Below are positions 2,704-57,824 of a DNA stretch of 64,000 bases, in pieces. The DNA is from an uncultured Lachnospiraceae bacterium (GTDB lineage Bacteria > Bacillota > Clostridia > Lachnospirales > Lachnospiraceae): contig CADBRV010000050.1 of assembly GCA_902797185.1 (NCBI GenBank), positions 1-64,000 of the forward strand. The letters are read 5' to 3'. Under the pieces are notes generated by a model that was given only the letters and a program-made list of their open reading frames with translations, was not told the origin of the DNA and did not search any database. The stretch's first letter is position 1, and each line of letters starts with the position of its first letter. A program made the position numbers and the translations under genes.

Positions 2704-2800
2704 GATATCGATCGCAAGAAGGAACCCGCCTCAGCGGAGGGATGCCTTGCTATGTGCCAGCCACATCGTCCGCCCTCTCGCCTGGACGATTATTCCAAGG
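2704..2800 (+). repeat. Dispersed intergenic repeat, copy A
   Basis: Member of the family best seen at 16374-16493. It has the ATATCG-type left end, the CCGC-loop-GCGG hairpin at about 2726-2738, the CACATCGTCCGCC block and a degenerate right end. The internal hairpin module is absent. Its right end abuts the stop codon of the gene at 2801. Confidence 0.75.
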
Positions 2801-3451
2801 TCAGACCGCGATGGTATTTCCTTCTTTCAACTGTCCTTCATGTGCCTCTTCTTTTTCCTGGAACAGGATCATGCCGCCTTTTTCCTGAAAGCCGGTATTC
2901 CAAAGATGTTCAAAATCCATCCAGTACCACTTGCCGAAGGATACTGCTTTTACCTGGAAAGAATCTTCCTTCTGTTCATAGCCGGTCAGGAGGAACCAGT
3001 GCCATTCAAAATCATCCAAGTCTTTTGCCTTGTGTCGGAGCAGGAGGTAAGGGATCGGATATCCCCCATCGATCTGCCTACGGACCGCTTTTTCTGCTTC
3101 ATCCAAAGTTTTTTCCCCGGGAAACGGGGTAAGCAGCATGGGGTTGCCGCCCCTTAAGCCCTCATACTTTTTAAAATCCCTGATATACATATCCAGCGTA
3201 TCTACGCCGCGAAGCCCCGGGCGGAAATACTGCCTCATCATTTTGCTGGAGTAACGCAGGTAATCACGTTCGCTCAGGCTGTTTTTATCAAACGGATAAA
3301 GGTTTGTCCCCCTGTAAAGGTCAAACCAGATACAGCTGTCACAGGCAGTTATAGCCGCGCATCCCGCGAACTGGACCATACGGTCAGGGATCGAGTTCTG
3401 GTCTCCGCCATATTTACCGCCAATTAAAAAATAACCAAGTTCTTTTTTCAT
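2801..3451 (-). CDS. Papain-like/C39-like hypothetical protein
   Basis: I do not recognise a named family. The 216-residue protein is soluble, with no signal peptide or membrane segment. The order of features suggests a papain-fold peptidase-like protein: DQNSIPD (Gln18), GCAAI with Cys31 at a helix start, and a later DFEWHWFLLTGYE segment with His, then hydrophobic beta strands and an aromatic-rich end. In C39-type and butirosin BtrH-like folds Gln, Cys and His are arranged like this, but homology is inferred only from the pattern. It has its own promoter (3494-3522). The last codons run into repeat copy A, so the C-terminus may have been altered by the repeat. Only a weak AGG ribosome site precedes the ATG. 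Confidence 0.6.
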   Translation of the reverse strand: MKKELGYFLIGGKYGGDQNSIPDRMVQFAGCAAITACDSCIWFDLYRGTNLYPFDKNSLSERDYLRYSSKMMRQYFRPGLRGVDTLDMYIRDFKKYEGLRGGNPMLLTPFPGEKTLDEAEKAVRRQIDGGYPIPYLLLRHKAKDLDDFEWHWFLLTGYEQKEDSFQVKAVSFGKWYWMDFEHLWNTGFQEKGGMILFQEKEEAHEGQLKEGNTIAV

Positions 3452-9297: not shown

Positions 9298-9500
9298 GGA
9301 CAGCCGCCGCATTGCAAATCGTCCTATATCACCGCCCTGCCTGGCGATGATATAGAAAAAAGACGAGCCTCGCCATTATAATCCGCACTTCGTGCGGTGG
9401 CGTGGCCTGCATCATCGCCTTACAGGCGAAACGGCTGACGATGCGGCTGGTGCATCGTAAGGGATCCTCCCGCTGAAGCGGGCCTCTCCGAACGATATAA
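9298..9500 (-). repeat. Dispersed intergenic repeat, copy B (with hairpin module)
   Basis: Near-complete copy on the minus strand, about 200 bp. Left end TATATCGTTCGG, CCCGC-TTCA-GCGGG hairpin, TTACGATGCACCAGCCGCATCGTC, then an inserted palindromic module (9367-9406, arms GCCTCGCC and GGCGTGGC with an inner CCGCAC/GTGCGG stem), and the right end GGACGATTTGCAATGCGGCGGCTGTCC. It fills most of the gap 9194-9548. Confidence 0.88.
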
Positions 9501-13880: not shown

Positions 13881-13940
13881 TTACCTTACGATGTACCAGC
13901 CGCATTGTCCGAAGGACAATTTGCAATGCGTCGTCTGTCT
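13881..13940 (+). repeat. Dispersed intergenic repeat, copy G (short form)
   Basis: Short form with TTACGATGTACCAGCCGCAT, then the hairpin TTGTCC-GAA-GGACAA and the right end GCAATGCGTCGTCTGTC. Compared with copy E the stem carries C-to-T on the left and G-to-A on the right, which keeps the pairing. Confidence 0.78.
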
Positions 13941-14605: not shown

Positions 14606-16345
14606 TTAGCGTTCTTTCTTCAAAATCGCATCAAAATGACACAGTTCCATGCAAAGGCCGCAGCCGTTGCACATGGTCGGGTCGATGGAAATCGTCTTGT
14701 CTTCGTTCTGTGCCATAGCCGGGCAGCCCGGTTTCAGGCAGGCGCCGCACTTCTTGCACTTTTCCCTGTCCTCTACACAGACATAGGGGAACTTCACGGT
14801 TTTCAGCAGCGCGCAGGGAGCCTGGGTGATAATGACGCTGAGTTCTTCCTTCTGGGTCTCCTGGCGCAGGAGCTTGACCAGCCCTTCCTGGTCGAAGGCG
14901 TCAATCTTTGTCACATTTTTGATACCCATGGAACGGCAGAGCTTTTCCATATCGATCATAGGCACTGTCTCCCCCATCAGGGTCTTGCCGGTAGCGGGGT
15001 TGTCTTGGTGGCCGGTCATGGCAGTAGTGGAGTTGTCCATGATAATGACAGTGCCGGTAGCCTGGTTGTATGCCATGTTCATCAGGGAATTGACCCCGGT
15101 ATGCATGAAGGTGGAATCACCAATGACGGCAACCCAGTTCTTCACGTAATCTTTTCCCTTGGCTTTTTCAATGCCATGCAGGGAAGAAATGCTGGATCCC
15201 ATGCAGACCGTGGTATCCATGGCATCCAGTGGGGAAAGGGCGCCTAAGGTATAACATCCGATATCCCCGGTTACATGGAGCTTCAGCCTGTGGATGGCAT
15301 AGAAAACACTCCTGTGGGGACAGCCCGGACACAGGATCGGCGGGCGCGGCGGGATATCTTCTGCCGGGTGCACGTCAATTTTCTCCCCTAAAAGCTTCTC
15401 CCTGAGCATGTTGGCGGAATATTCGCCCTGGCGGGTGAAGAGGTCCTTGCCGATGCAGGAGATGCCCCAGGATTTTACCTGCTCTTCAATCACCGGTTCC
15501 AGTTCCTCGAAGATATAAAGCTTGTCTACCTTTGAGGCAAACTCTTCGATCAGTTTCCTGGGGAGCGGGTTTACAAGGCCAAGCTTCAATACAGAAGCAT
15601 GGGGACAGGCTTCTTTTACATACTGGTATGCGATGCCATTGGTAATAAAGCCGATGGAAGTATCATCATAGGTGGCCTTATTGATCGGGAAAGTGCAGGA
15701 ATCCTCGCTTAAACGGTTCATCCGCTCTTCCACGGCCACATGGCGCTTCTTGGCCATAGCAGGCATCATGACATTTTTCTGGATATTCTTTTCATAAGGA
15801 CGGTCTTCCGGCACCGCCCTGTCCTCCAATACGACAGGTCCCTGGGAATGAGAAAGCCTGGTGGTGGAACGGATGATCACCGGCGTATCATAATCTTCGC
15901 TCATCTGGAATGCGAATTTGATAAAATCCTTTGCTTCCTGGCTGTCGGAAGGCTCAATGACCGGGATCTGGGCAGCCCGGCCGATCATGCGGGTATCCTG
16001 CTCGTTCTGGGAGCTGTAAATGCCCGGGTCATCCGCAACAACAGCGACCAGCCCGCCATTTGCCCCGATATAGCTGAATGAATAAAGAGGGTCCGCTGCA
16101 ACGTTCAGCCCCACCATCTTCATGGCGCACATGGAACGGGCGCCAACGATAGAAGCACCAATGGCTACTTCCGCCGCCACTTTCTCATTGGGTGCCCATT
16201 CGCAGTAGACATCTCCGTATTTTGCAAGATTTTCACTGATCTCGGTACTGGGCGTCCCCGGATAAGCAGAGGAAACCTTGACCCCGGCCTCCCAAGCGCC
16301 CCTGGCAAATGCCTCGTTTCCGAGCATGATTTTTGTTTCTGCCAT
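14606..16345 (-). CDS. iorA: Indolepyruvate:ferredoxin oxidoreductase, alpha subunit
   Basis: Large subunit (579 residues). Order: N-terminal pyruvate-ferredoxin-type pyrimidine domain (GNEAFARGAWEAGVKVSSAYPGTPSTEI), middle domain, TPP-binding domain with CPGCPHR, GDIGCYTLGA and the Mg/TPP motif GDSTFMHTGVNSLMNMAYNQ, and a C-terminal pair of [4Fe-4S] motifs (CKKCGACLKPGCP and CNGCGLCMELCHFDA). The iron-sulfur tail shows that electrons go to ferredoxin. A GCGAGG ribosome site precedes the ATG. Repeat copy C lies just upstream. Confidence 0.97.
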   Translation of the reverse strand: MAETKIMLGNEAFARGAWEAGVKVSSAYPGTPSTEISENLAKYGDVYCEWAPNEKVAAEVAIGASIVGARSMCAMKMVGLNVAADPLYSFSYIGANGGLVAVVADDPGIYSSQNEQDTRMIGRAAQIPVIEPSDSQEAKDFIKFAFQMSEDYDTPVIIRSTTRLSHSQGPVVLEDRAVPEDRPYEKNIQKNVMMPAMAKKRHVAVEERMNRLSEDSCTFPINKATYDDTSIGFITNGIAYQYVKEACPHASVLKLGLVNPLPRKLIEEFASKVDKLYIFEELEPVIEEQVKSWGISCIGKDLFTRQGEYSANMLREKLLGEKIDVHPAEDIPPRPPILCPGCPHRSVFYAIHRLKLHVTGDIGCYTLGALSPLDAMDTTVCMGSSISSLHGIEKAKGKDYVKNWVAVIGDSTFMHTGVNSLMNMAYNQATGTVIIMDNSTTAMTGHQDNPATGKTLMGETVPMIDMEKLCRSMGIKNVTKIDAFDQEGLVKLLRQETQKEELSVIITQAPCALLKTVKFPYVCVEDREKCKKCGACLKPGCPAMAQNEDKTISIDPTMCNGCGLCMELCHFDAILKKER

Positions 16346-16373: not shown

Positions 16374-16493
16374 TATATCGCAAGGAGGAACCCGCTTCAG
16401 CGGGAGGATTCCTTACGATGCACTAGCCGCATCGTCCGCCGTCCCGCCTGGTAAGGCGGTGACATAGGACGATTTGGAATGCGGCGTCTGTCC
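16374..16493 (+). repeat. Dispersed intergenic repeat, copy C (reference copy)
   Basis: The cleanest copy, 120 bp. Left end TATATCGCAAGGAGGAACCC, hairpin CCCGC-TTCA-GCGGG, TTACGATGCACTAGCCGCAT, CGTCCGCCGTCCCGCCTGG, TAAGGCGGTGACATAGGACG and right end ATTTGGAATGCGGCGTCTGT. The outer GCCGCATCGTCC can pair with GGACGATTTGGAATGCGGC (mismatches in the middle), enclosing an inner CGCC/GGCG stem. No open reading frame and no transposase. Confidence 0.9.
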
Positions 16494-16511: not shown

Positions 16512-18293
16512 TTAAAATAAAAATCCCGAGATGACAACCTGGAGGGACCGGATCCCGCGATATTCATTCACCTGTGGGTAATAACAAAACGAAAGGCATC
16601 TGCTGCCGCGTCCTTCCAATAAGGCTTCTTCTTCCCCTATCCCGTATTTTTCACGGAACTGTGCAAAAAAGCGGTCCGCGTCACCGAAATAAACCCCGTT
16701 CATCCTTCCTCCTGTTTCGGTAAGGAGGGAAAAGCGGGCCATGTTTTTTTCTTTCCCGATACGGGCGGCAGATAAAAAGACTGCCTTGTTTTCGGCAAAA
16801 AGCGGTTTTTCGTTGTCTGTGCCAAATGGCTCCAGCAGTTCCAGCTGCCCCACCAGCCCTTCCGTGATATAGGAAAGCGGCATCCTCATGTCCATATATT
16901 TTTTTACCGCTAAATCGTCCTCTGTCAGGCTGGCATGTTTGTTCAGCGCCTCCCGCAGGGCTGGGATTTTTTCCACTTCCACCGTAAATCCGGCTGCCAT
17001 AGGATGCCCGCCGAACTGTACGAAATATTCCCCGCAGGCAGTCATTTCATCATACATGGAATACGCTTCGATGGATCGGGCAGAACCTTTTACCTTCTCC
17101 CCTGTCCCTGCCGCTACAAAAGTGGGACGGTTATATTTTTCTTTGATCCTTCCTGCCACAATCCCGGCAATGCTGTCCAGGCAGTCCGGAAGGTATAAAA
17201 AGTAGACACTGTCATCCTTATGGCCGGAAGTTTCCACCTGCTCGACGGCCTGTTCCACCCCTTTCCGGGTCAGTTCCTTCCGTTCGGCATTAAGCTCCAC
17301 AAGCTTTTCGGCCCGCCGGGCTGCTTTCACTGGGTCTTTTTCCAAAAGCAGGGACATGGACTCCATGGCGGTCTCCAGCCTGCCGGAAGCGTTGATGCAG
17401 GGACCCAGTACAAACCCTAAATGGAACGCTTTTACATCGCCAATTTGATTGGCCCGGATCAGGGCTTTAAGCCCGATGTTTTTTGTCTGGTTCATCTGCC
17501 GAAGGCCGTAAGTCACGATGACCCGGTTTTCCTTCTTCAAAGGCATCACGTCGCCTACCGTGGCAAACGCGGCATTTTCCATAAAGCAGTAAGGCTCATC
17601 CTTGTCCCTTCCCGCTTTTTCATAAAGGACCTGCAGGAATTTCATAGCGACTACGGCGCCGCAGATATCCGGGAAAGGATAGCGGCTCCCCTGACGTTTC
17701 GGGTCCACCACATAATCTGCCTGGGGGAGGATCTCTTCTTTCTCCCCGCCTTCTTCCTTGTAAGGCACGTTATGGTGGTCTGTGACAATGACAGACATGC
17801 CCTTTTCCTTCGCGTAAGCGATTTCCTCCGCCGCCGCGATGCCATTATCACAGGTTAAAAGCACCTTTTTTCCGTCTTCCAGGGCAAGATCCACCAGATG
17901 GCGGTTTAAACCATATCCGTCCGTCATCCTGTTGGGGATCGCCGTATCTGCCTCAATTCCAAGTTTTCTAAGGCCTTCCTGGAGGATGTAAGACGCGTTG
18001 ACCCCATCAATATCATAATCCCCGATAATCCGGATGGCCTGCCCTTCCCGGGCCAGCTGCAGCAGCAGCCCCGCCGCTTCATCCACATCCGGCAGAAGGT
18101 GCGGGTCCTCCATTCCGGAAAGGGAAGGATGGAGGTACCCGTCCATGTCCTCCGGTTCCACATCCCTGTTGCACATAAGGCGTACCACCACCGGGTCTAC
18201 TCCCAGCTTATGGGAAAGCCCGTTAAAATCCGTTTTTTTCATCCGCAGGAACCATTTTTCCACCGGTCCCTCCGGCATTTTCCGGTTTGACAT
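16512..18293 (-). CDS. recJ: Single-stranded-DNA-specific exonuclease RecJ
   Basis: 5'-to-3' single-strand exonuclease in recombination and mismatch repair. The DHH-phosphoesterase motifs are present: IGDYDIDGVN, CDNGIAA, VTDHHNVP and GDVMPLK, followed by the DHHA1 motifs INASGRLETA, VKGSARS and FGGHPMAAGF, then an OB-fold C-terminus. At 593 residues it is the compact RecJ form. ATAGGAGG precedes the ATG with a short 3-nt gap; an internal ATG five codons later is possible. No terminator intervenes before the repeat at its 3' side. Confidence 0.94.
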   Translation of the reverse strand: MSNRKMPEGPVEKWFLRMKKTDFNGLSHKLGVDPVVVRLMCNRDVEPEDMDGYLHPSLSGMEDPHLLPDVDEAAGLLLQLAREGQAIRIIGDYDIDGVNASYILQEGLRKLGIEADTAIPNRMTDGYGLNRHLVDLALEDGKKVLLTCDNGIAAAEEIAYAKEKGMSVIVTDHHNVPYKEEGGEKEEILPQADYVVDPKRQGSRYPFPDICGAVVAMKFLQVLYEKAGRDKDEPYCFMENAAFATVGDVMPLKKENRVIVTYGLRQMNQTKNIGLKALIRANQIGDVKAFHLGFVLGPCINASGRLETAMESMSLLLEKDPVKAARRAEKLVELNAERKELTRKGVEQAVEQVETSGHKDDSVYFLYLPDCLDSIAGIVAGRIKEKYNRPTFVAAGTGEKVKGSARSIEAYSMYDEMTACGEYFVQFGGHPMAAGFTVEVEKIPALREALNKHASLTEDDLAVKKYMDMRMPLSYITEGLVGQLELLEPFGTDNEKPLFAENKAVFLSAARIGKEKNMARFSLLTETGGRMNGVYFGDADRFFAQFREKYGIGEEEALLEGRGSRCLSFCYYPQVNEYRGIRSLQVVISGFLF

Positions 18294-26016: not shown

Positions 26017-26099
26017 TGGCAGGCCGCGCCCTCACGCGAAGCGTGATCTTTCATGGCGCGGCTCTGCTTAAGTACGATTTGGTACGCGTCGCCTGTCCC
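26017..26099 (+). repeat. Dispersed intergenic repeat, copy H (hairpin module + right end)
   Basis: Contains the palindromic module with arms GCCGCGCC/GGCGCGGC (26023-26030, 26055-26062) and inner stem TCACGC-GAA-GCGTGA, then TACGATTTGGTACGCGTCGC and CTGTCC. The left half is missing. It ends one base before the sbcC stop codon. Confidence 0.78.
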
Positions 26100-26100
26100 T

Positions 26101-29019
26101 TTAAACGATGATTTTTGCGGTGCTCCCCTTTCCAGGGGCTTCGGTTACCACGATCTGGCGGTCTATTTTTTTCTTTAATTCTTCTACGTGGGAGATGATC
26201 CCCACCAGGCGGTCTCCCTTCGTCAGCATGGAAAGGGCTTCATATGCCGTTTCCAGTTTTTCCTGGTCCAGGGTGCCGAACCCTTCATCTACAAAGAGGG
26301 TGTCGATGACAATGCCTCCTGCCTCTGCCTGGATTTCATCGGAAAGGCCAAGGGCTAAAGACAGGGCTGCCAGGAAAGACTCCCCGCCGGAAAGGGAAGC
26401 GGCAGGCCGCTGGGTGCCGGAATAATGGTCCTGGATCAAAATGCCCAGGCCAGTCTGGCCCCTGGAGCTGTCTTTTGCTTTCTCCCTTTTCATCTCGTAG
26501 CGGTTGTCCGACATTTTCAAAAAGCGAAGGTTGGCGTATCGGAGTACCCGGTCAAAATAGTAGGTCTGGACATAAGTTTCCAGGGTCAGCTTTTCCCTGC
26601 CGCTGGCGGTGCCGCCCATAATGTCGGAAAGGCTGCTGATACCCGCGTATTTCTCTTCTACGCTTTTAAGCTTTGCCTGCTGCCTGCGGACCCCTTCCTG
26701 CATCTTCTGGTTGTTCTGCAGCCGGGCGGATACAGACTGGAGGCTGTCCGAAAGGCTCTTTGCCATCTGGTTCTCCTGCTGCCATCCTGCTTTCAAGCTT
26801 TCCAGGCTCTTTCCTTCAGATGCCGCGTGCACGCTTTTCTCCAAAGCCTGTACGGCGGATTTTGCCTTGGACAATTCCTGCAGGGCGGCCTGGAAGCCCT
26901 GTTCGATGTCCTGCCTGTTTTTCTGCAGGCGGGACATTTCCTGCCGCTCCTTCTGCAGGGCAGCCTTGGCTTCTTTTCCGGAGCCAAAGGGAAGCTGCGC
27001 CTGCAGGCTCCCGATCTGCTCCTCAAGGGCAGTTTCCTGTGCTTCCAGGGCAGATAAAGAAGAACCACATTTTCCTAACGCATCCTGCATCTTGGAAAGC
27101 TGCTCCCGTGCCAAAGGCAGACTCTTCCCAAGAGATTCCTTTTCTTTGCAGCGCGCCTTTTGAAGGGATATTTCTTTCTCGACCCGGGATAAAGCTTTCT
27201 TTAGGGATTCTTTGCGAAGGTCCAGCTCTTTGGATATGGTATCTTCATCCAGTGCTGTTCCAAACCCGTTTCCAGGAGTTTCCTCCGCCATATTTTCAAA
27301 ATTCTGCACAAGTCCATTCCCGTGATATTGTACAGTTCCGTTTTCAAGCTCTTTACCGGAGATTCTCCCGGATCCATCTTCCATATTTTCCCTGGACCGT
27401 TCCTCCAGCCCGATTTTACTGCTTCTTTCGGATACTTCCCGGGAAAGGTTCTCCCAATGCGCCTTTTTCCCGGCACAGGAACGGGATGCCTCTTCCCTTT
27501 CTTTATCCTTTTGTTCCAGGCTTCCTCTCAGCCTGCGGACTTCTCCCTCCTGCGGCACTTCTTCCTCCATCTGTGCCGGGGATGGATGGCTGGTGGAGCC
27601 GCATACCGGACAGGGCTCTCCTTCCACAAGGCCCTTTGCCAGGATGCCTGCCTGGCCTGCCAGAAATGCGTCCTGCTTTCTTTCATATTCTGTACGCAGG
27701 CTTTTGGCCGCCTGCTGCAGTTTTAAGAAAATCCTCTGGCTTTTTTCCAGGTCCTCCAGGGCTGCTTTTTCTTCTGCAAGTTTCCCTTTAAGCTGAAGCA
27801 CCTCGTCCATCTGGCTCTGGAGGGTTTCTTTTTCCTTTTCCGCCTGATTTTTTCTGCTTTCCGCATCTTCCAGGCTTAAAGCCTTCTTTTCTGCCTCTTC
27901 CAGATTGTCTTTTGCCTTTGAAAGATTTTCTTCCAATGAGTTTTTCCGTTTTCTTTCACCGGCTGCTTTTTGGCTTAATTCGGCTTTTTGAGCAACAAGC
28001 CCATCCAGCCGGGTATAAGAAGGCAGCTGTGCTTCCTCTGCCGCCACCTTTTCCTGCAGGGCCTTTTCCTGCTCCTGGAGCTTGGGGACTTTCTGGTTTT
28101 CCTTTTCTTTTTCCTGAAAGCTTGCCTTGGCATTTTCCAAGGAATTTCTGGCTTCTTCCAGGCTGCGGACGTTCTTTAACCTTTCCTGCTCTTTCCCGAT
28201 CTCCTTGCTTAACCCGTCTGCTTTTTCCCGGGTCGTATCGATGCGGCCGCTTAACTGGCTGACAGCGTTTTCATCCTCCGTAATAAGCTGGCCGACCAGC
28301 TCCAGTGCTTCCAAAGCCGGAAGGCCTCCTTCCCTGGCTTTCTGCACTTCTTCTTCCTTAGGGTGGCCCTTGGGGCATGCAATGCCCCCAAGATAGACGC
28401 CGAGGGATGCTTCTACCCTGTCCCTTTCGGAAAGCATCCTGCTTTTTTCTTTTTTCAGGGACTCCTGCAGCTTCTGGTAGGGCTGGGTATGGAATAATTC
28501 CCGGAAAATACTGCTTCTCTCTTTCGTATCTGCGCGCAGCAGCTTCTGGAATTCTCCCTGGGCCAGCATGACGATGCCGGAAAACTGGTCTTTGGAAAGG
28601 CCCAGCAGCCCCTTTACTTCCTTATCTACATCGGATGCCTTGGTAAGAACCGTCCCGTCGGGCAGAATCATCTGCACCTGGGCTGCCTGTTTCGTCATCC
28701 CTCCTCCACGCTTGGAAGGGCGCAGGTATTCCGGGCTGCGGGAAACAGCATACTCCTTCCCCCTGTGGGAAAATACCAGCTCCACCATGGTGGGCGTGCC
28801 AGGGTCCGCATATTTACACCGGAACATGCTGCTGTCCCTCCCGCTGCCGCTGGCCGCACCATAAAGGGCGAAGGAAATGGCATCAAAGATCGTGGTCTTG
28901 CCGGCACCCGTATCGCCAGTGACCAGGTATAGGCCGCAGCGGCCTAATTTTTCCATCGGAAGCTCCACCCTGCCCGCGTAAGGGCCGAAGGCGGAAAGCG
29001 TAAGTTTCAGCGGCCTCAT
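26101..29019 (-). CDS. sbcC: Exonuclease SbcC (Rad50-like ATPase)
   Basis: SMC-like ATPase subunit of the SbcCD nuclease, which cleaves DNA hairpins and processes blocked ends. The 972 residues run: N-terminal ATPase half with Walker A GDTGAGKTTIFDA (about 35-47), Q-loop region (LAQGEFQKLLRA), long coiled coil, zinc hook CPVC (in EGEPCPVCGSTSHPSP), second coiled coil, ABC signature SLSGGESFLAALSLALGLSD, and Walker B DTLFVDEGFGTLD with the H-loop ISHVEEL. The ATG overlaps the sbcD stop by 4 nt (ATGA), so translation is coupled. The coiled coil holds a Gly/Asn-rich irregular insert around RISGKELENGTVQYHGNGLVQ. Confidence 0.96.
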   Translation of the reverse strand: MRPLKLTLSAFGPYAGRVELPMEKLGRCGLYLVTGDTGAGKTTIFDAISFALYGAASGSGRDSSMFRCKYADPGTPTMVELVFSHRGKEYAVSRSPEYLRPSKRGGGMTKQAAQVQMILPDGTVLTKASDVDKEVKGLLGLSKDQFSGIVMLAQGEFQKLLRADTKERSSIFRELFHTQPYQKLQESLKKEKSRMLSERDRVEASLGVYLGGIACPKGHPKEEEVQKAREGGLPALEALELVGQLITEDENAVSQLSGRIDTTREKADGLSKEIGKEQERLKNVRSLEEARNSLENAKASFQEKEKENQKVPKLQEQEKALQEKVAAEEAQLPSYTRLDGLVAQKAELSQKAAGERKRKNSLEENLSKAKDNLEEAEKKALSLEDAESRKNQAEKEKETLQSQMDEVLQLKGKLAEEKAALEDLEKSQRIFLKLQQAAKSLRTEYERKQDAFLAGQAGILAKGLVEGEPCPVCGSTSHPSPAQMEEEVPQEGEVRRLRGSLEQKDKEREEASRSCAGKKAHWENLSREVSERSSKIGLEERSRENMEDGSGRISGKELENGTVQYHGNGLVQNFENMAEETPGNGFGTALDEDTISKELDLRKESLKKALSRVEKEISLQKARCKEKESLGKSLPLAREQLSKMQDALGKCGSSLSALEAQETALEEQIGSLQAQLPFGSGKEAKAALQKERQEMSRLQKNRQDIEQGFQAALQELSKAKSAVQALEKSVHAASEGKSLESLKAGWQQENQMAKSLSDSLQSVSARLQNNQKMQEGVRRQQAKLKSVEEKYAGISSLSDIMGGTASGREKLTLETYVQTYYFDRVLRYANLRFLKMSDNRYEMKREKAKDSSRGQTGLGILIQDHYSGTQRPAASLSGGESFLAALSLALGLSDEIQAEAGGIVIDTLFVDEGFGTLDQEKLETAYEALSMLTKGDRLVGIISHVEELKKKIDRQIVVTEAPGKGSTAKIIV

Positions 29020-31535: not shown

Positions 31536-31658
31536 ATGTACTCCGTTTCAATTATGAATATTTAACAGCAACCCGCCAAAGGGATGCCTTGCATGTGGTC
31601 CATGCATCTCATCCTATCTCGAATATTATTATTGCCATTCTGTTCTATTTCTCTATAT

Positions 31659-31752
31659 GTTGTAAGGAGGGAACCGCTTTATCAGGAGGTTCCCTTGCAA
31701 TGTGCCATCCGCATCATCTGCACTACGATTTGAAATGCGGTGTCTGCCCTGG
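31659..31752 (+). repeat. Dispersed intergenic repeat, copy D
   Basis: Degenerate copy without the internal module: TGTAAGGAGGGAACCGC, GGAGGTTCCCTTGCAATGTG, CATCCGCATCATCTGC and right end TACGATTTGAAATGCGGTGT, CTGCCC. The first hairpin is rebuilt as GGGAACC/GGTTCCC. Confidence 0.7.
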
Positions 31753-39776: not shown

Positions 39777-39871
39777 ATATATCGTTAGGCGGGACCGGCT
39801 TCAGCAGGCGGGACCCTTACGATGGGCGAAACGCATCGTCCGAAGGACGATTTGTAACACGGCGGCTGTCC
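39777..39871 (+). repeat. Dispersed intergenic repeat, copy E (short form)
   Basis: Short form lacking the inner stem and internal module: TATATATCGTTAGGCGGGAC, CTTACGATGGGCGAAACG, then hairpin CATCGTCC-GAA-GGACGATTTG and right end CGGCGGCTGTCC. It lies antisense to the predicted ATPase-operon transcript from the distal promoter. Confidence 0.85.
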
Positions 39872-57654: not shown

Positions 57655-57824
57655 AGACAAACGCCGCATTCCAAATTATCCAAAAGGGAAGCCGCACCAT
57701 GAAAGATCACGCTCCGCGTGGGGGCGCAGCCTGCGTCGGCACCTTGCCAGGCGTGACGGCGGACGATGCGGCTTGTGCATCGTAAAGGTTCCTCCCACTG
57801 AAGCAGGTTCCTTCGTACGATAAA
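57655..57824 (-). repeat. Dispersed intergenic repeat, copy F (with hairpin module)
   Basis: Near-complete minus-strand copy, 170 bp: left end TTATCGTACGAAGGAACCTG, hairpin CCTGC-TTCA-GTGGG, TTTACGATGCACAAGCCGCA, TCGTCCGCCGTCACGCCTGG, the hairpin module (57691-57730, arms GCCGCACC/GGGCGCAGC), and right end TTTGGAATGCGGCGTTTGTC. It lies inside the predicted 5' leader of the rhomboid-like gene. Confidence 0.88.

Follow-up and report, generated by a model that had tools for sequence, protein, structure and literature searches.

The sequence at positions 16374-16493 of the analysed DNA, a 64,000-nucleotide stretch from an uncultured Lachnospiraceae bacterium (the window), is one copy of a repeat family that is best explained, with a probability of roughly 70%, as a REP/MITE-like family of mobile DNA repeats that form hairpins, are non-autonomous and are moved in trans, probably by a non-Y1 enzyme. 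The general idea of a dispersed element of REP/BIME or MITE type had been put forward in an earlier note on this DNA, and it is supported by about 150 copies in the source genome against 0 in six congeners, by precise ends and by the presence of truncated and deleted derivatives. Together with the patchy recurrence of its core within Lachnospiraceae, this gives the family the look of a parasite-like repeat that is spreading.

The eight copies given in the earlier note are all present and all related, and they form a single family, the ends of which are fixed (GGACAG... and ...CGATA); the list is complete, a ninth copy having been searched for in the window and none found. The spacing of about one copy per 8 kb applies within the window, which is enriched, but genome-wide the figure is about one per 15 kb. 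Both orientations occur, as had been described, but the orientation relative to genes is not random. The sense of the element was defined as GGACAG to CGATATA, and the copy at 16374-16493 therefore lies on the minus strand. This reference copy, a member of the 120 nt class, runs from GGACAG at 16493 to CGATATA at 16374, with hairpin 1 at about 16425-16485 and hairpin 2 at about 16374-16419 (both minus strand); the hairpin-2 match spans 16374-16435 (minus strand). It is flanked by recJ (16512-18293, minus strand), the stop of which at 16512 is 18 nt from the copy, and by an iorA-like gene (14606-16345, minus strand) with matches to pyruvate/indolepyruvate-type oxidoreductase domains, the start codon of which at 16345 is 28 nt beyond the copy.

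The remaining copies in the window differ in length and completeness. A diverged copy of ~100 nt lies at 2708-2807 (minus strand; covariance-model match with E = 8.3e-7, hairpin 2 at 2711-2769), and a 202 nt copy at 9298-9499 (plus strand; left end 9298-9324, hairpin 2 9438-9499) has an additional palindromic module within hairpin 1. The copy at 13882-13939 (minus strand) is a 58 nt deletion derivative in which the left end is fused to the hairpin 1/2 junction and hairpin 2 is truncated (match 13882-13907, minus strand). Hairpin 2 has been lost from the truncated copy at 26017-26098 (minus strand), which consists of the left end (26074-26098), beginning 2 nt from the stop codon of the gene at 26101-29019, and a GC-rich module. 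Two copies belong to the 94 nt class, at 31656-31749 (minus strand; hairpin 2 match 31657-31715) and 39778-39871 (minus strand; hairpin 2 match 39778-39839), and a copy of the 170 nt class with the GC-rich module is found at 57655-57824 (plus strand; hairpin 2 match 57763-57822).

The element consists of two dissimilar, imperfect hairpins of ~60 and ~45 nt with fixed ends; the consensus of the 120 nt class in the sense orientation is GGACAGACGCCGCATTCCAAATCGTCCTATGTCATCGCC..GGCGATGACATAGGACGATGCGGCTAGTGCATCGCAAGGAATCCTCCCGCTGAAGCGGGTCCCTCCTTACGATATA. In the predicted fold hairpin 1 contains an A/T-rich 7 nt bulge (TTCCAAA), and hairpin 2, the conserved heart of the element, has an invariant core with a conserved, non-canonical internal loop that is rich in pyrimidines. 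Size classes of ~59, 94, 120, 170 and 250 nt were distinguished, which differ in the palindromic modules that the hairpin 1 tip has gained or lost and in deletions by which hairpin 2 has become fused to the left end. Another module, which is GC-rich and composed of a GGAGAGCC-hairpin and then a TGTCATCGCC palindrome, is similar to the hairpin 1 that related elements have in other genera. GC-rich modules of the GGAGAGCC type were also observed beside or outside complete elements (L117, C68:2800-5400; L062, C123:4300-15600) and may constitute a separate repeat family. The consensus ends in CCTTACGATATA, and the T-run of an intrinsic terminator following a GC hairpin is absent on both strands. 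The 20 left-end-only sites that were inspected proved to be truncated or rearranged copies; no transposase was found within the limited flanks of these sites, and no autonomous long form or parent was found among the loci read, likewise with limited flanks.

A covariance model was built from 14 copies and used with a cut-off of E ≤ 0.01. The genome search, which had been proposed in the earlier note, returned 149 copies in 2.30 Mb (best E 4.6e-35) rather than none beyond those already listed, and the left-end pattern was found at 152 sites in the genome compared with 3 for a reversed-pattern control, so that the copy count is far beyond chance. With this first model 0 copies were found in six other species of the genus, and a hairpin-2 model run with more sensitive settings gave 147 copies in the source genome versus 0 in the same six congeners. 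Copies were also seen to sit at contig ends in the source genome (contigs C5, C23, C31 and C69); the draft assembly is therefore probably interrupted by the repeats, and the counts given may be too low.

Outside the genus, the first covariance model gave weak matches in other genera. These foreign matches have in common a strict hairpin-2 core, AAGGNATCYTCCC-loop-GGGNCCCTCCTT, around which the outer stem varies by lineage. A scan of ~85,000 species genomes for the core yielded at least 114 stretches; among the matches listed nearly all are from Lachnospiraceae (Pseudobutyrivibrio, Butyrivibrio, Roseburia hominis, Agathobacter and many MAGs), and several rumen Treponema records carry the core as well. 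The distribution is patchy: the hairpin-2 model matched 38 of 397 Lachnospiraceae genomes, and in a 398-genome sample of the phylum only three genomes, all Lachnospiraceae and none from another family. On rumen Treponema contigs (L165, L166, L192, L216 and L219) the core lies within long hairpins (~150 nt where the flanks allow measurement) that have a second conserved internal loop, GGGTCCCAG..GGAAAAAATC / GCTTTTTTCC..GTCCC, and palindromic, copy-specific outer arms. Hairpin 2 without hairpin 1 can build short tandem arrays (L156, L168, L170, L197, L203, L224 and G282:C16:1041-1306). No match was obtained in 2.9 million viral contigs or in phage and plasmid records, which counts against a mobile family. 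A literature search by sequence strings and terms, with most subscription journals outside its coverage, found no earlier description.

The structure of the core covaries strongly. In an alignment of 42 diverse hairpin-2 sequences pairing holds in 96% of cells, and in the outer stem 97 cells have changed on both sides compared with 27.8 in shuffles; sliding the pairing register destroyed this signal. At the internal loop C.T and T.C are exchanged (65 CT, 17 TC, 7 CC and 3 TT), with a Fisher p of 2e-10 from a statistic that ignores the relatedness of the sequences. Covariation within the source genome alone is weaker and limited to the hairpin-1 stem, and palindrome-correcting replication errors could also have produced it; this covariation alone is therefore no proof of selection. 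That the core is conserved between genera could alternatively be due to a cellular binding protein or a role as RNA.

Genes were called by ORF heuristics and the placement percentages are thus approximate: in 54 of 134 copies a Shine-Dalgarno site, start codon and ORF come no more than 45 nt after the right end (CGATA), and in 10 of 99 a Shine-Dalgarno site and start come after the left end when it is read outward (8% for random non-coding points). A purine tract 6-12 nt past the right end is retained in 49 copies that have no gene start nearby, and the left flank is A-rich. Insertion is directional: the ...CGATA end is turned toward an A/purine-rich tract, and in many cases a Shine-Dalgarno site follows closely. 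Of 123 core copies in other genera, 25 lie at most 300 nt from tRNA or tmRNA genes (2.5% expected from random positions in the same loci), and 13 of the 123 are 9-12 nt from a tRNA/tmRNA gene end, nine of them at the 3' end of an opposite-strand tRNA/tmRNA and four at the 5' end of a same-strand tRNA. Since these placements use either transcription strand, they argue for a DNA-level insertion preference and not for a shared RNA strand. In several genera the repeat adjoins the tmRNA gene at its 3' end, often in tandem (L185, L201, L214 and L221), through either repeated or ancestral insertion.

In the conserved F-ATPase operon the atpG-atpD gap is 147 nt long, of which 120 nt are the element, and it measures 53 nt in one congener and 15 nt in another, a comparison made at ~65-70% DNA identity, where the flanks have diverged too far for an empty site to be defined to the base. 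In the 76 copies with both ends, 15 flank matches of at least 4 nt were observed compared with 12.8 in shuffled sequences, i.e. no target duplication was detectable. Divergence from the consensus is spread continuously from 0 to 18% or more. Complementary substitutions occur in broadly similar numbers (A>G 213, T>C 160; G>A 199, C>T 184), and the two strands are equal in wobble pairs within the source genome (132 versus 139); this strand-symmetric decay fits a DNA element better than a regulatory RNA. The pattern is the expected residue of repeated insertion followed by neutral decay.

That the copies are cis-acting RNA elements (5' leaders, intercistronic stabilisers or translation controls) retained for regulating the downstream gene is considered unlikely. 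The element does resemble the structured cis-regulatory RNAs of Rfam in its covarying hairpins, its conserved internal loop and its frequent position in leaders; 40% of the copies end 9-44 nt ahead of a same-sense start codon, hairpin 2 contains CCUCCUU, which is complementary to Shine-Dalgarno sites, and wobble pairs in foreign copies lean modestly to the opposite strand (33 versus 18). It differs from such RNAs, however, in having no match to the curated Rfam covariance models, in the functional diversity of the neighbouring genes inspected and in its placement at DNA boundaries, with both transcription strands used at tRNA/tmRNA genes; moreover, wobble pairs and mutations are without strand asymmetry in the source genome, and the six congeners lack the element. 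Compared with the reverse complement, the element does not differ significantly in predicted Shine-Dalgarno accessibility (p = 0.09). Sequestration of the Shine-Dalgarno site by CCUCCUU was rejected, the predicted pairing being no stronger than for the shuffled element (20 versus 21 of 54 copies). Very improbable is a further reading, in which chromosomal protein-binding sites (gyrase/BIME-like or architectural) have been amplified by selection rather than by mobility: the sequence-conserved internal loop and extragenic placement recall BIME functions, but the absence in congeners is complete, the decay looks neutral and many copies are truncated.

No mobilising enzyme was found. Y1_Tnp (PF01797) is absent from the source genome (99% complete) and, among 21 carriers tested, from 12 others, several of which are reported to be 99-100% complete; Y1 genes are present in eight of the 21. 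Of 20 Y1 loci fetched and inspected, two contain a hairpin-2 match, both outside the conserved IS region, and none contains an IS200 with the ends of the element. RAYT-associated REPs are defined by the tetranucleotide GTAG or GTGG, located 0-2 nt from the hairpin on its 5' side (PMC6006769). In the source genome hairpin 2 is preceded by CTAGTG, and GTAG or GCAG occurs in a minority of foreign copies only. The copy number, extragenic position and hairpins are REP-like, and both the G(T/C)AG between the hairpins of some foreign copies and the Y1 genes of the eight carriers would suit an ordinary RAYT-REP system whose Y1 transposase was lost or has diverged past recognition; the lack of Y1_Tnp in the source genome and 12 other carriers, a tag that is not general and the rarity and position of the hairpin-2 matches at Y1 loci make this explanation unlikely. 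Recurrent neighbour genes were rejected as drivers, the neighbours, with families assigned by eye from sequence, belonging only to common families (SmpB beside tmRNA, ABC transporters and histidine kinases). It is possible that a RAYT or an IS has been lost. The earlier suggestion that the element is possibly mobilised in trans is supported as a general idea but not in its canonical forms, neither a RAYT with a consistent tag nor an IS with matching ends (none among the loci read in the source genome, with limited flanks) having been found.

The family shares features with several known systems. Like REP, REPIN and BIME sequences with a RAYT (TnpA-REP), it has more than 100 copies per genome and is extragenic, palindromic, non-coding and expanded in a lineage-specific manner; unlike them, it is built from two dissimilar hairpins, has no consistent GTAG/GTGG tag and lacks a Y1 gene in the source genome and in 12 other carriers. 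With MITEs such as ERIC, RUP, Correia/NEMIS and CIR (PMC2229807), from which it was set apart by their descriptions, it has in common small size, non-autonomy, structure, intergenic position, internal modules and truncated forms, but it has no terminal inverted repeats (the ends GGACAG... and ...CGATATA are not complementary), no target duplication and no parental IS among the loci read, and its insertion is directional at purine tracts. The palindromic elements derived from IS200/IS605 (PATEs) likewise have hairpin ends and no target duplication; the differences are the missing Y1 transposase in the source genome and the result for the 20 Y1 loci. As the family fails the tests of Y1 gene, GTAG/GTGG tag, terminal inverted repeats and target duplication, it is filed under dispersed palindromic repeats, as neither REP nor MITE.

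In the proposed mechanism a trans-acting enzyme would recognise the hairpins, most likely in the form of single-stranded DNA. It would copy or move the element into A/purine-rich tracts in a directional manner and leave the target unduplicated. Inserted copies would then decay neutrally, and the surviving insertions would be those at gene boundaries, i.e. in gaps between stop codons and Shine-Dalgarno sites and at tRNA/tmRNA edges. The copy number, ends, modules, patchy distribution, directional placement, lack of target duplication and lack of a Y1 transposase in many carriers are observations; mobility itself, the single-stranded substrate and the trans-acting enzyme are all three features that we infer from sequence. 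Only tentatively can the family be called a new mobile-repeat system of Lachnospiraceae and rumen Treponema, characterized by a hairpin core with a covarying non-canonical loop, a non-Y1 enzyme and directional insertion beside purine tracts and tRNA ends with no target duplication. Should the repeats move with neither a RAYT nor a parental IS, an unrecognised enzyme copies hairpins in a dominant gut family and probably in another phylum. This would provide a concrete target in the search for a new ssDNA-processing or retro-type activity, and it would account for many structured intergenic sequences of Lachnospiraceae that might otherwise be taken for regulatory RNAs.
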